A DNA stretch of 64,000 nucleotides. Origin: Cycloclasticus pugetii PS-1. Its GTDB lineage: Bacteria; Pseudomonadota; Gammaproteobacteria; Methylococcales; Cycloclasticaceae. A program made the position numbers and the translations under genes. Under the pieces are notes generated by a model. The model was not told the origin of the DNA. It was given only the letters and a program-made list of their open reading frames with translations, and searched no databases. The stretch lies in contig NZ_ARVU01000001.1 of NCBI RefSeq assembly GCF_000384415.1, positions 1,736,001 to 1,800,000 on the forward strand. The letters run 5' to 3'. Shown one piece after another: positions 55,619-60,469 of the stretch; the first letter of the stretch is position 1; each line of letters starts with the position of its first letter.

Positions 55619-56428
55619 TCAACTTGGTCCACCAGCTTTTCTTACCATCATGCCCTTTGATGGGTTATAACCCCAAACGGCCACTAACAAAAACACAATA
55701 AACGCCACTAAGGTATACACAAAAGCAGCTAGGTTAAACTGCCCATACAGCGCAAATCGAAGCAACTCAACCGCTTGTGAAAACGGATTATAACTTGCCA
55801 AGGTATGCAATAACTCGCTTGATTCTTTAATTTTCCATAACGGATAAAGCGCCGTAGACATAAAAAACATTGGAAAAATAACAAAATTCATCACCCCTGC
55901 AAAGTTTTCTAACTGTTTTATAAAAGACGACAGCAACATTCCTAACGCTCCGAGCATTAAACCCGCTAGGACCAACGCCGGAAATAAAGTCAGATAGCCC
56001 AGCCATGGTGCTTGAATGTCATAGAACCACGCAATCAGCAAAAACACATACGCTTGAAGGATCGAAACAAACGTCCCGGCCATTAATTTTCCAGTGAGTA
56101 AAAACCAACGTGGCAAAGGGCTAACTAAGAGTGTTTTCATGCTACCCATTTCGCGATCATAGACCATCGATAAGGAACTTTGCATGCCATTGAAGAGTTG
56201 AATCATGCCAATCAAACCAGCAGTAATATACACCTCATACAATATGTACGTTTCATACGGTGGCATAATCGCAATTCCCAAGGTAGAGCGAAAACCCGCT
56301 GCAAAAACAAACAACCAAACCAAGGGCCTAACTAACGCCGCAATAAAACGTTCACGTTGAAGCAAAAATCGCCACAACTCTCGTTTTATAATACCTTTCA
56401 ATGCAATAAAGGCATGCTTAAGCCTCAT
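55619..56428 (-). CDS. ABC-2-type permease of PQQ/alcohol-associated ABC cassette
   Basis: This 269-residue inner-membrane protein has six predicted helices and the ABC-2 permease pattern, with the loop MVYDREMGSMKTLLVSPLPRWFLLTGKL. It resembles the permeases (PedC-like) found with PQQ-dependent alcohol dehydrogenases. ABC-2 permeases usually export, yet the cassette also encodes a periplasmic binding protein. The start overlaps the ATPase gene by four bases. It ends 36 bases before miaB, so the cassette may read into the miaB-lnt genes. Confidence 0.87.
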   Translation of the reverse strand: MRLKHAFIALKGIIKRELWRFLLQRERFIAALVRPLVWLFVFAAGFRSTLGIAIMPPYETYILYEVYITAGLIGMIQLFNGMQSSLSMVYDREMGSMKTLLVSPLPRWFLLTGKLMAGTFVSILQAYVFLLIAWFYDIQAPWLGYLTLFPALVLAGLMLGALGMLLSSFIKQLENFAGVMNFVIFPMFFMSTALYPLWKIKESSELLHTLASYNPFSQAVELLRFALYGQFNLAAFVYTLVAFIVFLLVAVWGYNPSKGMMVRKAGGPS

Positions 56429-57159
56429 GATGATATCCCCTGTGTTAAGCGCTTAAACGCACGGGAGATGTCATCTGTAGAGTCCCCACCACATACTTGG
56501 CTCACCGGCCCTTGTGCTTTGATTTCCCCTTGATGCAAAACAAGCAACTTATCAGACGGATACACCTCATCGATCAAATGCGTTGCCCAAAGAACCGACA
56601 ACCCATCATCTTTGCATAACGCATGCACGTGCTCAACAATCCCTTTACGGCTTGACACATCCAAACCAACAGTGGGCTCATCTAATAACAATAAAGATGG
56701 CTTATGTAACAGCGCTCTGGCTATTTCCACACGCCGACGATGCCCGCCATTGAGCTGACGAATTTTTTCATCTTTACGCGCCAACATACCCTGCCTTTCT
56801 AGTTCTTCACTTACTCGAACGGAAGCCTGTTTACGCGACATACCGTGCAACGAGGCGTGATAATAAAGATTTTGCAGAACACTTAAATCCATATCTAGTG
56901 TTGTTTGCTGAAACACCACCCCTAAATTCGCCAAAGCCTGACAAGCTTGCGTCTTAACGTTAAACCCATTAATGCTAATTTCACCGGAACGACTGTCGTA
57001 CAAATGCGTTATCAACGAAAACAAGGTCGACTTGCCCGCACCATTAGGCCCTAACAAAATAGCGCACTCACCAGCTGCTATTGAAAAATTAATGTCCGAT
57101 AAGGCTGCTGTATTTCCATACGCATAACTTAGCGTTTTAACAGCTAATGAAAGACTCAT
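56425..57159 (-). CDS. ABC transporter ATP-binding protein of PQQ/alcohol-associated cassette
   Basis: The 244-residue ATPase has Walker A GPNGAGKSTLF, the Q-loop VVFQQTTLDMDLSV, an unusual signature LNGGHRRRVEIARALL in place of LSGGQ, Walker B LLLLDEPTVGLDVSS and the switch histidine in LWATHLIDEV. The NGGHRR signature is typical of the group associated with PQQ-dependent alcohol oxidation. It overlaps the beta-propeller gene by one base and the permease gene by four. Confidence 0.9.
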   Translation of the reverse strand: MSLSLAVKTLSYAYGNTAALSDINFSIAAGECAILLGPNGAGKSTLFSLITHLYDSRSGEISINGFNVKTQACQALANLGVVFQQTTLDMDLSVLQNLYYHASLHGMSRKQASVRVSEELERQGMLARKDEKIRQLNGGHRRRVEIARALLHKPSLLLLDEPTVGLDVSSRKGIVEHVHALCKDDGLSVLWATHLIDEVYPSDKLLVLHQGEIKAQGPVSQVCGGDSTDDISRAFKRLTQGISS

Positions 57160-58112
57160 TATTTAACTGCAATACCCCAAGGGTAACGACCAACCCGTAC
57201 AGATTTTGTTACTGTTAAGGTTTCCACCTCAATAATCGAAATGTCATTACTGACACCATTAGTTGTATACAACCGCTTTAAGTCTGGCGAAAACGCAAGG
57301 TTCCATACCCGCTGGCCAACTAATAAATACTTGATGACCGTCATTGTTTCAATATCCAAAACAGCAACACGGTTCGCAGGACCCAACGCAACAAATAAAA
57401 ATTTATTATTCGGGTGCGCCAACACACCGACCGGTTGAATAAGCGCCTTATCAACCCCGGCTATTTCAAACTGTACTTTACTGACAATTTGCTTCGTCGA
57501 CACATTAATACGAGACAAAGAACCTGCTATTTCAGAGCTTACAAACAGCGCTTGACCGTCTACAGAAAACTCTGCTGCCCTAGGACGTGAATCGACCAAG
57601 GTATTCTCTTTTATCGTTTGCTCTGTAGGATCAATCCAATGGACCATATTAGTTGTTTCAGATGTATTAACTACCCACTTTCCATCAAGAGACACAGCAA
57701 TACCTTCAGGTTCCACGCCAACCGGGATCTCAGCAATTACGTTCTTTGTTTGCAAATCAATCACTGTGACAATATTGTCATCTTCATTAGATACGTACAA
57801 CCAAAGGCCATTAGGGTGAATCTTGAACAATTCCGGGTCATCACCTGATGGCAGCTCACCCACCACCTTTAAGCTTGCGGTATCTATAACCTGAATGGTG
57901 TCATCGTCACTCGCTGCGACATAGAGTTGTGTTTTATCGTTGTTGAAGGCTACACCACGTGGGCGCTGACCCAACGGCACTGTTTGCAACAACTGCCCTG
58001 TTTCACCGTTAACCACAGCCAAGGCGTTGTCTTTTTCTAATGTTATATAAAGTGTATCTGCAAAACTGACTGTCGAAAAAATTATTAAAAACGCGAAGAG
58101 GTATTTATTCAT
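57159..58112 (-). CDS. Periplasmic YVTN beta-propeller protein, PQQ-catabolism associated
   Basis: The 317-residue product has a signal peptide (cleavage probably after VSFA) and six or seven YVTN-type repeats of about 42 residues. Clear repeat cores are LYVAASDDDTIQVID, LYVSNEDDNIVTVIDLQT and LYTTNGVSNDISIIEVETL. It matches the beta-propeller family that accompanies PQQ-dependent catabolism ABC cassettes. Its ligand is unknown, and it does not have the tryptophan-docking motifs expected of a PQQ enzyme itself. It lies eight bases after the binding-protein gene. Confidence 0.9.
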   Translation of the reverse strand: MNKYLFAFLIIFSTVSFADTLYITLEKDNALAVVNGETGQLLQTVPLGQRPRGVAFNNDKTQLYVAASDDDTIQVIDTASLKVVGELPSGDDPELFKIHPNGLWLYVSNEDDNIVTVIDLQTKNVIAEIPVGVEPEGIAVSLDGKWVVNTSETTNMVHWIDPTEQTIKENTLVDSRPRAAEFSVDGQALFVSSEIAGSLSRINVSTKQIVSKVQFEIAGVDKALIQPVGVLAHPNNKFLFVALGPANRVAVLDIETMTVIKYLLVGQRVWNLAFSPDLKRLYTTNGVSNDISIIEVETLTVTKSVRVGRYPWGIAVK

Positions 58113-58120
58113 TATTATTT

Positions 58121-59305
58121 TTAGCGTAATTCACATGTTGATTCGAGCTTATCATACCCTAGCGTATCTAAATAAGTCCGCGGGTGTAAAAACTCTTTAA
58201 GCGGCAATACCGAGACAATTGAGCGTGGCGTTGCCAATAAAACAGGCTGACGTAACTGTTGATTCCAACGCCTAAATGTAAGCTTTACACCTTTAAAACC
58301 GGCCAAACTAAAACGATCACTGAGGATATATTTTTTTACTTCAGCTGGCTCCACTTTATTGGCTCGTGTCACCGCCTCACCTACCGTACGAACGGCTAAC
58401 CATGACGAGTAATCAACATCATTCATCCAGCGGCCAGCTTGCTTATAAAACCTATTTTGCATTTGAACTGCGCCCCATCGCTCGTGGGTTCTATGCCAAG
58501 CACTTGGCACTAAACCCTGCGTGCCAATAATAGGTCGAGGTAACCAAGTATTCATCGTTAAGTATTCACCAAATAAGCCTTTTACATCCGCTACCGCTAA
58601 AACATCATACTCAGCGCCCTGAGTAAATACAGGGATTTCTGCTTGCGCTGTGCGACGAGCATCATGATCAAAATTCCACGTTTTTTCTTTTACGATTTTT
58701 ATCCCAAAACGTTTTGCAGCACGCTTAATAGCATTAGCAAAGCGTTGGTCTTCTTCATCGTTCCCCTTAACCAAAAACCAATTTTGCCAGCGTTTTTTCA
58801 GCATCCATTGAGCAAGTGCATCTGCTTTCATAGCATCACTTGGAATAATATGAAAGATGTTTGCACTACAACTGTTATTCCTTAGCCTGTCATCTGTCGA
58901 TGAAACATTGAAGAGCAATATATTCTTCGGCTTGGCCAAGGCAGAGATTTTTTCCAGTGTTGATGCTTGAACATCGACGAGGATATAGCGATAACCTCCT
59001 TCTACCAATAGATTGAAGGCGCTAATTACATCAGCATGAAGAGGCACCTCAATGTGCTTCAAGTCATAATGATGTCCTGTAAATTGCCCTGTGGTATTAT
59101 TATCCTTGATGCCTAAGGTGGCTCCTTGAATACCTTCATCCGTTAGTATTGGGTCAAGGTTTGATAAGGCCGGCGGCACTGCTCTTTTTTCCGTAAGCAA
59201 GGCCAAACTCACCTTAACATCATTTGCTAGCACATGATTGGAGCCCATCACCATTAAGCAAGTTAAGAAAAAAACCACGCGCTTGTTTAATACCATATTA
59301 TTCAT
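58121..59305 (-). CDS. Periplasmic binding protein of PQQ/alcohol-associated ABC cassette
   Basis: The 394-residue protein has a signal peptide (cleavage likely after HVLA) and the two-lobed fold of leucine/amide-type binding proteins. It matches the binding-protein family seen beside PQQ-dependent alcohol dehydrogenase systems: LTDEGIQGATLGIKDNNTTG, ILLFNVSSTDDRLRNNSC and the GVKLTFRRWNQQLRQPVLL end are typical. The substrate is not known. It is the first gene of the four-gene cassette. A candidate small RNA with its own terminator lies 138 bases upstream on the same strand. Confidence 0.88.
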   Translation of the reverse strand: MNNMVLNKRVVFFLTCLMVMGSNHVLANDVKVSLALLTEKRAVPPALSNLDPILTDEGIQGATLGIKDNNTTGQFTGHHYDLKHIEVPLHADVISAFNLLVEGGYRYILVDVQASTLEKISALAKPKNILLFNVSSTDDRLRNNSCSANIFHIIPSDAMKADALAQWMLKKRWQNWFLVKGNDEEDQRFANAIKRAAKRFGIKIVKEKTWNFDHDARRTAQAEIPVFTQGAEYDVLAVADVKGLFGEYLTMNTWLPRPIIGTQGLVPSAWHRTHERWGAVQMQNRFYKQAGRWMNDVDYSSWLAVRTVGEAVTRANKVEPAEVKKYILSDRFSLAGFKGVKLTFRRWNQQLRQPVLLATPRSIVSVLPLKEFLHPRTYLDTLGYDKLESTCELR

Positions 59306-59442
59306 TTTTTAACCGGCTCTTTAGCAATGGACACTGCCCTTTCAAGCGCTTCATGCGCCATCTGTGTGCAGCTTGACTTGTTTTTGATTTTATTTTGATT
59401 AAAACAGCACGTCTAGTGCAATTAAAGTCTAGAATGTGAGGC

Positions 59443-59469
59443 AAAAAAAAGCGACTCATAAAGAGTCGC
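59443..59469 (-). terminator. Intrinsic terminator of the candidate small RNA
   Basis: On the minus strand, GCGACTC (59469-59463) and GAGTCGC (59457-59451) form a perfect seven-pair stem with loop TTTAT, followed at once by eight T (59450-59443). There is no T-run on the plus strand, so the signal is directional. Confidence 0.88.
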
Positions 59470-59533
59470 CAAGAGGAGGAGAACATTATTACATTGGGCA
59501 GCGATCTGAGAGCAGAGCTGCAGTAACAATGTG
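59443..59533 (-). ncRNA. Candidate small RNA with anti-Shine-Dalgarno tract
   Basis: The predicted transcript of about 90 nt starts near 59533. A ten-pair 5' stem joins 59532-59523 and 59492-59483. It includes one G-U wobble that only works in minus-strand RNA. Inside it, GCAGC (59521-59517) pairs with GCUGC (59502-59498). Next comes an unpaired UCUCCUCCUCUU (59482-59471), complementary to strong ribosome binding sites of the AGGAGGAG kind. A terminator hairpin GCGACUC-UUUAU-GAGUCGC followed by eight U ends it. This layout matches trans-acting sRNAs that block translation starts. I do not recognise a named family. A transcription attenuator for the ABC cassette is the alternative. Confidence 0.7.
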
Positions 59534-59539
59534 ATATGA

Positions 59540-59568
59540 ATATTATATTGCTTTGCAGCATACGTCAA
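59540..59568 (-). promoter_or_regulatory. Putative sigma-70 promoter of the candidate small RNA
   Basis: The minus strand shows TTGACG (59568-59563), 17 bases, then TAATAT (59545-59540). An overlapping TATAAT lies at 59547-59542, at 15-base spacing. The predicted start, about seven bases after the -10 box, coincides with the first base pairs of the long 5' hairpin, which supports both calls. Confidence 0.65.
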
Positions 59569-59659: not shown

Positions 59660-60469
59660 ATGAACATTGAATCCTCGGCAGAAAACCCAGCTTTAGATGT
59701 TATTGAGCGCCACCCTAACAAAGCGACTCGCAAACCCATCTTATTTATTCATGGTGCGAACATGTCTGCATGGTGTTGGGACGAATACTTTATGCCTTTT
59801 TTTGCAGACCTGGGGCATCCAACCTATGCCATCAATCTACGCGGCCACGGGAAAAGCGGCGGAAGCGCCATGCTCGCTTCAAATAGCATTGCCGATTATG
59901 TTAATGACATTCAACGAGTTATCGATGAAATTGGCGAACCCCCAATTCTGATTGGTCACTCCTTAGGTGGGCTGATTATTCAAAAATATATAGAAAAGGA
60001 AACCGTTCCTGCCTCCATACTGATGGCTAGTGTTCCTGTTGACGGTCTTATTCCATCAATTATTGATTTGGCCTTGAACCCAACTTTTTATATGCAAATG
60101 AACCTTGGCGAACTTATCGGCACGTGGTTTTCACCGGTTGATCTAACGCGTAAATCTATATTTGCTGGCCACGTTAATGACGATGTTGTAATCCGTTATT
60201 GTGCTGAAATGCAACAAGGCTCTCCAAAAGCTTTGCTTGATACCTTATGGCTTGGTCTGCCTACGTACAAAAACCCTTTCGAGATCCCGATGTTGGCGCT
60301 CAGTGCTGATGAGGATACTTTCTTTAGGCCCGCACACATCAGAAAAACAGCAAAGGCATACAAGGCAGACTTCATTAATATGAAAAAAATGGGGCATACC
60401 ATGATGATTGACGCTCACTGGCGTGAAAGTGCTGAAACCATTCAGCATTGGCTAGAAAAAAACCTTTAG
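59660..60469 (+). CDS. Alpha/beta-fold hydrolase
   Basis: The 269-residue protein is a soluble serine hydrolase of the alpha/beta family. The oxyanion segment is LFIHGANMSAWCW, the nucleophile elbow is IGHSLGGLI with Ser near residue 99, the acid is probably in ALSADEDTFF and the histidine is in KKMGHTMMID. The substrate is not evident, and esterase, lipase or C-C hydrolase activity is possible. The ATG has a good ribosome binding site, GAGGT. It is a single gene closed by a bidirectional terminator. Confidence 0.87.
   Translation: MNIESSAENPALDVIERHPNKATRKPILFIHGANMSAWCWDEYFMPFFADLGHPTYAINLRGHGKSGGSAMLASNSIADYVNDIQRVIDEIGEPPILIGHSLGGLIIQKYIEKETVPASILMASVPVDGLIPSIIDLALNPTFYMQMNLGELIGTWFSPVDLTRKSIFAGHVNDDVVIRYCAEMQQGSPKALLDTLWLGLPTYKNPFEIPMLALSADEDTFFRPAHIRKTAKAYKADFINMKKMGHTMMIDAHWRESAETIQHWLEKNL

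Follow-up and report, generated by a model that had tools for sequence, protein, structure and literature searches.

CCUCCU is the anti-Shine-Dalgarno core of 16S rRNA. Several described small RNAs carry motifs of this kind. The alpha-R8 RNAs, which include MmgR and SisA-D (Rfam RF00519), are described as consisting of a hairpin, a single-stranded anti-Shine-Dalgarno linker, UUUCCUCCCU, and a U-tailed terminator (PMC12559287). According to the same account, the Caulobacter RNAs SisA-D are present in several copies that have unrelated promoters, their targets include TonB-dependent receptors, and SisA represses TonB-receptor mRNAs (PMC12559287). NfeR1, an alpha-r14 RNA from S. meliloti, is reported to have ultraconserved unpaired anti-Shine-Dalgarno motifs, CCUCCUCCC, amid variable stems, and to silence via this motif by occluding a translation start (PMC10746234). 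The Neisseria RNAs NmsRA/B (NgncR_162/163) are presented as tandem sibling sRNAs with anti-Shine-Dalgarno motifs and metabolic targets (PMC5362039).

We analyzed a window of 64,000 nucleotides from Cycloclasticus pugetii PS-1, a marine bacterium that degrades oil, and found that a 90-base stretch almost certainly encodes, judging from its sequence, a small regulatory RNA that exposes an anti-Shine-Dalgarno sequence. This RNA (the window RNA) and its homologues have the same plan as the alpha-R8/MmgR RNAs, hairpin, anti-Shine-Dalgarno linker and terminator, in 16 of 16 folds. The window RNA does not have the 10-nt UUUCCUCCCU core; its linker is UCUCCUCCUCUU and its terminator is also different, and it gave no match to RF00519 (gathering threshold 41 bits) at E up to 10. 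With the betaproteobacterial toxic small RNAs (RF02278), which are described as having several copies per genome, it has in common a tract of the UCUCCUCC type that precedes a GC-rich terminator. In the RF02278 model, unlike in the window RNA, the tract and the terminator are separated by a hairpin whose loop holds a second CU run. The window RNA gave no match to RF02278 (gathering threshold 50 bits) at E up to 10, and copies of a related element in another genome (G401, below) score 21.9 and 21.7 bits. NfeR1 is described as having three hairpins, each with the motif, and as acting independently of Hfq. In contrast, the window RNA has one linker and two hairpins, and the three hairpins exposing CCUCCUCCC that mark alpha-r14 members were not found in it. 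NmsRA/B, which are from a different lineage and are described as having two anti-Shine-Dalgarno motifs, are alike by description, not by sequence.

More generally, Rfam searches at gathering thresholds found only tRNAs in the sources scanned and no family at this site. At E up to 10 nothing relevant was found in the window; the best sRNA match was JA04, with 17.6 bits against a gathering threshold of 81. The features expected of a trans-acting anti-Shine-Dalgarno sRNA are present in the sequence: its own promoter, a Rho-independent terminator, exposed CCUCC, and a host with Hfq (not required by every such RNA). Because the RNA would work like the alpha-R8/MmgR RNAs and falls outside the described families by sequence, we would classify it as a new family. 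We found no description of it in the literature searched, using searches that were too loose to show absence.

The element and its conservation in Cycloclasticus

The predicted features of the element are as follows.

59540 to 59568, minus strand: sigma-70-type promoter, TTGACG-17-TAATAT (-35 at 59568-59563, -10 at 59545-59540)
59557 to 59549, minus strand: TGC-AAA-GCA in the promoter spacer, possibly an operator
59443 to 59532, minus strand: candidate small RNA of ~90 nt, predicted to start at A59532 and to end in the U tract, based on the fold and homologues
59483 to 59532, minus strand: 5' hairpin with a 10-pair outer stem (59532-59523 / 59492-59483) and a variable loop
59521-59517 / 59502-59498, minus strand: inner stem of the 5' hairpin, GCAGC/GCUGC
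59471 to 59482, minus strand: single-stranded linker UCUCCUCCUCUU with CCUCCU (anti-Shine-Dalgarno-like), the proposed seed
59443 to 59470, minus strand: intrinsic terminator, GGCGACUC-UUUAU-GAGUCGCU followed by U8 (hairpin 59470-59450, U8 59450-59443)

A preliminary description, made from the letters of the window, had named the promoter, the ten-pair hairpin with its GCAGC/GCUGC pairing, the UCUCCUCCUCUU tract and the eight-U terminator on the minus strand, and all are there. The minus-strand RNA folds at -30.9 kcal/mol (z = -7.3), which was equaled by none of 200 dinucleotide shuffles, and the fold of the 90-nt RNA has eight pairs in the terminator hairpin. The plus-strand fold of the same 90 nt is -25.9 (z = -4.7), and the terminator hairpin forms there too. 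The promoter hexamers alone were not significant (3 promoter-like sites in 2 kb vs 4.9 expected), and terminator-like sites alone were within chance (4 vs 1.7 ± 1.6 expected). It is the conservation of promoter spacing, hairpin, tract and terminator, rather than the hexamers alone, that places the element above chance.

We compared 18 Cycloclasticus genomes in a DNA search (the source genome is 2.38 Mb). Homologues were found in 16 of the 18, including all 10 that are near-complete; the two genomes without a match are G013 (58% complete) and G014 (87% complete). Each genome with a match has one copy at E <= 0.001. All 16 copies have the hairpin, the open CU linker and the terminator (the weakest hairpin is in L016), and the linker is unpaired in all 16 minimum-energy folds. 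All 16 also have TTGAC (TGGAC in one), exactly 17 nt, and then TA.

Mean pairwise identity among the 16 copies changes abruptly along the element. In the promoter it is 0.90 for the -35, 0.77 for the spacer, 0.73 for the -10 and 0.35 between the -10 and the start. In the RNA it is 0.90 and 0.87 for the two stem arms, 0.50 for the loop, 0.94 for the CU linker, 0.87 for the terminator hairpin and 1.0 for the U tract. The flanks are at 0.44 upstream and 0.46 downstream. These sharp boundaries indicate that the element is one transcription unit.

Compensatory changes in both stems and an invariant CU tract had been put forward as the result that would support a small RNA. The first was found. Changes on both sides of a pair occur in 1 of 10 outer-stem pairs and 2 of 8 terminator pairs, and 98.3% of pair cells can pair, compared to 31-61% in controls with slid partners. 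The count of double-changed pairs was reached by 1 of 500 shuffles, a control that ignores relatedness. For further pair types the count was ordinary (reached by 123 of 500 shuffles). Strict invariance did not hold: the tract UCUCCUCCUC is exact in 14 of 16 copies and L013 and L015 deviate, so that it is nearly invariant. With the element in 16 of 18 genomes, a common fold and paired stem changes, the small-RNA interpretation gains support.

The transcribed strand had been assigned from a single G-U wobble in the long stem, and the homologues bear this out. In the minus-strand RNA 281 of 286 pair cells are standard. Read as plus-strand RNA only 234 of 286 are standard, because 47 cells are G-U pairs in the minus-strand RNA. 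As read from the alignment, the pair changes, via G-U and compensatory steps, fit only the minus-strand RNA.

We also considered that the region encodes a small protein, an 87-aa open reading frame at 59298..59561, and rejected this. There is no conserved reading frame: in L013 and L016 each of the three frames of the RNA contains stops, so the 87-aa frame is not conserved.

Bases 59442-59440, just after the U tract and outside the predicted RNA, are GCC in many copies from several families.

Genes and promoters around the element

Three annotated regions flank the element.

58121 to 59305, minus strand: PQQ-dependent alcohol dehydrogenase system ABC substrate-binding protein, the downstream neighbour (TIGR03863, 484.6 bits, cutoff 413.6)
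55619 to 58112, minus strand: rest of the cassette, comprising a PQQ-associated beta-propeller protein (TIGR03866), an ABC ATPase (TIGR03864) and a permease (TIGR03861, PedC type)
59660 to 60469, plus strand: alpha/beta hydrolase, the divergent upstream neighbour (no NCBIfam model above cutoff)

A homologue of the substrate-binding protein is near 14 of the 16 Cycloclasticus loci, and a homologue of the hydrolase is also near 14. The exceptions are L014, which is without the hydrolase, L016, whose contig stops short of the ABC gene, and L013 (G002), which has neither. The genes next to L013 are presumably of the MoeB/ThiF and MurJ types. Since L013 keeps the RNA amid other neighbours, the link between the RNA and the ABC operon is not obligatory.

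We clustered the flanking open reading frames of 43 loci, mostly outside the genus, over ~1.5-2.3 kb. These represent 41 distinct places (L118 is the same as L060, and L138 the same as L068); L073 (G135, family f8) was left out. A PqqU-like TonB receptor or a PQQ-ABC substrate-binding gene adjoins 16 of the 41. The TonB-dependent receptor is next upstream on the same strand at 11 loci, all in families f4 and f6. The substrate-binding gene is next downstream on the same strand at five: L001, L042 and L086 (f1, f7), and L067 and L243 (f4). None of the 41 loci has both. The remaining clustered loci, f8 included, have other neighbours. Among solved structures, the receptor is nearest to E. coli YncD and the PQQ transporter. 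Its best NCBIfam match is PqqU, with 119.8 bits against a cutoff of 1200, and for this reason we call it PqqU-like and not PqqU.

The receptors adjoining the RNA at L118 (4281-6605), L143, L074 and L075 have an acidic D/E-rich insert around NGDDSDFEECEDE. This insert is possibly metal-binding.

The lut lanthanide-transport cluster of Methylorubrum extorquens is described as containing an ABC substrate-binding protein, exported proteins, an ABC ATPase, a membrane component and a TonB receptor (PMC7391723). The TonB and ABC neighbours found here make up a similar gene set, a likeness of gene content and not of LutA or LutH sequence. The order TonB receptor, sRNA, ABC cassette may be ancestral.

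The promoters vary between families. TGCnnnGCA is directly before the -10 TATA in 14 of the 16 Cycloclasticus copies (not in L007 or L015) and also in L042 and L043 of f7. As an operator pattern, ATRTTGCnnnGCAATAT with up to three mismatches is loose, with 815 places in the source genome compared to 444 for the reversed control. In f4, a different box, ATAAGA-N-CTKAT, was found with a regular expression in 15 of 16 loci of the first set, and it lies 21-22 nt before a -10-like TATA in the 10 loci scored. Among further f4 loci, L238 has the box, L236, L237, L241 and L243 do not, and L239 and L240 show it by eye. This variety resembles SisA-D, which are described as placing varied promoters on one output module.

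Related elements beyond the genus

The 3' part of the RNA, GUUCUCCUCCUCUUGGCGACC...GGUCGC-U8, is also present in three further families of the order, where the 5' hairpins are different. A model, R1, found 6 further genomes among 183 genomes of the order outside the genus; these keep the CU tract and the terminator and largely not the 5' hairpin. A pattern for the tract and terminator stem matched 24 of the 183 genomes (reversed control, 0). One of the 24 (G135; L073, f8) is without likeness in the terminator tail and looks like chance. The same pattern matched none of 365 genomes of the class outside the order. The terminator stem, GGCGAC/GUCGC, is itself kept in the other families of the order.

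A 24-row alignment has the consensus GUUCUCCUCCUC-UUGGCGACC..GGUCGC-U8, with 160 of 160 terminator cells paired and double changes in three pairs. The model R2 was built from these 24 rows, which come from genus copies and pattern hits, and its search is thus not independent of the pattern search; both R1 and R2 recover their training rows by construction. At E <= 0.01 R2 matched 89 of 201 genomes of the order. At E <= 1e-5 it matched 37 of the 183 outside the genus, and 36 of these 37 are in families f4, f6 and f7. Alignment A4 is without L063 and L064 (the script required TTTT in the tail), and L060, L061 and L066 were excluded as near-copies. Organisms of the order among the matches listed are Methylocaldum, Methylotetracoccus, a Methylothermaceae MAG and Methylococcaceae MAGs. 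We also scanned a wider contig collection. Most of the matches listed there (Streptomyces, Halorubrum and others) are chance-like, and they are to be taken as names, not counts.

Family f8 has weaker R2 matches, a degenerate tract (often UAUCCUUCUCUU) and its own AACUCU..AGAGUU-type hairpin, with one tandem pair, in L230. The kinship of these copies to the window RNA, judged from sequence, appears less sure. The f8 copies at L226-L232, L234, L235 and L244 have repeats like GCGACAATCTGCCAC upstream of the promoter. We take these repeats to resemble sites for RegA/PrrA-type redox regulators.

Among the 365 genomes of the class outside the order, 10 reached E <= 0.001. One of those outside the order, G401 (L367, L368, L369), has four sibling copies with a CUCUCCUCCUC linker and a GGCCGACC..GGUCGGC terminator, and two of the four are in tandem, 167 bases apart. 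In the wider contig collection, look-alikes from Betaproteobacteria, TCTCCTCCT-N-GGGCGACC..GGTCGCC and a T run, are present in L097 (4880-4965) and L139 (Gallionella, Ferrigenium), each downstream of a small gene that looks glutaredoxin-like by eye. Some look-alikes come near RF00519, below its gathering threshold of 41 bits (L097, 24.6 bits; G401, 19.9 bits). A second, diverged copy, with CTCTCCTCCTT and another terminator stem, lies ~480 bases away from the first in L372 (G023).

Possible mode of action, alternatives and targets

We think it likely, on the basis of sequence comparison, that the element is a stand-alone, trans-acting sRNA of ~90 nt whose linker occludes the ribosome binding sites of several mRNAs and so probably damps their translation. 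The promoter, the fold, the conservation, the strand, the autonomy from flanking genes and the presence of hfq (5 of 5 genomes tested; 104 bits in the source genome) can be read from the genomes themselves, and we infer transcription, Hfq binding, the targets and the sign of regulation. A sigma-70 promoter would drive transcription, with Rho-independent termination at the U tract. The 5' hairpin would shield the RNA and keep the linker UCUCCUCCUCUU open, and the U-tailed terminator is a probable docking site for Hfq. The linker would pair with Shine-Dalgarno regions rich in purines (AAGAGGAGGAGA-like) on several mRNAs, and this pairing would stop ribosome loading. Counting against this explanation, the linker would match many Shine-Dalgarno sequences, leaving specificity unexplained.

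It is conceivable that the element is instead a cis-acting leader or attenuator of the PQQ-ABC operon, with a common promoter and a terminator that is conditionally read through. It is on the same strand as the operon, its terminator is ~138 nt before the substrate-binding gene, and that gene follows in 14 of 16 Cycloclasticus loci and in f7. However, L013 keeps the whole RNA without a substrate-binding gene nearby, only 5 of the 41 clustered loci have the gene 3' of the RNA in the DNA covered, and the downstream sequence is unconserved (identity 0.46). Nor was there an alternative antiterminator in minimum-energy folds of the RNA alone, in which the stretch up to the gene was outside the fold. 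We consider a leader unlikely and favor an independent sRNA because the module also sits in other contexts. There is somewhat less reason to think that the CU tract is a sponge or decoy that mainly titrates a G/A-rich partner RNA or protein and not the ribosome binding sites of mRNAs, a quite unlikely reading whose precedent is that the SisA-D tract of Caulobacter is described as itself being sponged by the G/A-rich RNA CrfA (PMC12559287).

That the RNA is a global inhibitor of translation, a toxic RNA competing for Shine-Dalgarno sequences without defined targets, strikes us as very improbable. The window RNA has no RF02278 match even at E up to 10 and there is a single copy per Cycloclasticus genome at E <= 0.001, although the tract is of the same kind as that of the betaproteobacterial toxic RNAs, the four G401 siblings have similarity to RF02278 below threshold (21.9 bits, gathering 50), and RNAs of that family are reported as toxic when cloned in E. 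coli (PMC4603805). Hardly credible is an inactive or non-regulatory element, such as an intergenic terminator that works strongly in both directions. The terminator hairpin forms on the plus strand as well, but the promoter, the 5' hairpin and the CU linker are conserved and a terminator needs none of them.

The stand-alone sRNA raises the question of targets, for which prediction against start regions had been suggested; it gave some candidate leads and no clear match at the adjacent ABC gene. For L001, the linker and the start of that gene gave -10.4, compared to -8.6 ± 2.6 for shuffles (-7.7 ± 2.7 for shuffles at a second possible start). Without a clear match at the adjacent start, action is more likely in trans. 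We rejected the ABC gene as a cis target, with duplex energies near those of shuffled sequences at L001, L042, L086, L067 and L243 (the starts used for L067 and L243 are uncertain). At TonB receptor starts the values were -12.1 vs -8.0 ± 2.7 (L118) and -17.1 vs -13.0 ± 3.0 (L143).

We also counted places with GAGGAGG 2 to 10 nt before ATG. The source genome, G000, has 18 (2 for the reversed control), G003 has 34 (24 for the control) and G017 has 12 (2 for the control). We inspected 17 stretches that hold all 18 G000 places, all 12 from G017, and 20 chosen from the 34 in G003. Thirteen inspected places open a frame of at least 100 aa; L289 and L294 look internal to longer genes. A Pfam scan covered nine of the candidates (L289, L294, L313 and L319 were outside it). 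By Pfam, those in G000 are SelO, an HNH protein, a phage GPA-like protein and a ring-hydroxylating beta subunit; those in G017 are an AMO-family protein, a 4Fe-4S protein and a CoA-transferase III; and those in G003 are a CBS protein and one without a family. No coherent regulon emerged from these leads, and those in the source genome are few and functionally mixed. By family, the dioxygenase beta subunit, AMO-family and 4Fe-4S candidates may hint at hydrocarbon catabolism, but the other candidates alongside them are unrelated.

Based on the recurrent neighbours of the sRNA loci, our guess is that the regulon may have to do with alcohol oxidation that depends on PQQ, with the uptake of the metal or cofactor for it, or with the breakdown of hydrocarbons. 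The recurrent PQQ-system ABC and PqqU-like TonB neighbours provide a first hypothesis for what the sRNA senses or controls. A broader notion, which we regard as doubtful, places the module as one branch within an ancient superfamily of proteobacterial RNAs with anti-Shine-Dalgarno linkers. In this branch it would have become linked to a locus for PQQ/lanthanide uptake and would set the translation of oxidation genes. The other branches would be alpha-R8/MmgR in the Alphaproteobacteria and the toxic sRNAs in the Betaproteobacteria, with the branch here in methanotroph-related Gammaproteobacteria. If so, the locus order would be PqqU-like TonB receptor, sRNA, PQQ-ABC cassette; alcohol- and hydrocarbon-oxidation genes would follow the supply of cofactor or metal; and lineages would swap only the promoter and the 5' hairpin. 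A conserved anti-Shine-Dalgarno sRNA with a 3' module reused under different promoters would provide oil- and methane-oxidizing bacteria with a post-transcriptional regulator that can be tested.

The start of a 4Fe-4S-type gene keeps GAGGAGGGTGTTATG in both of the Cycloclasticus genomes G017 (L301) and G003 (L319); the likeness of the L319 gene was judged by eye.
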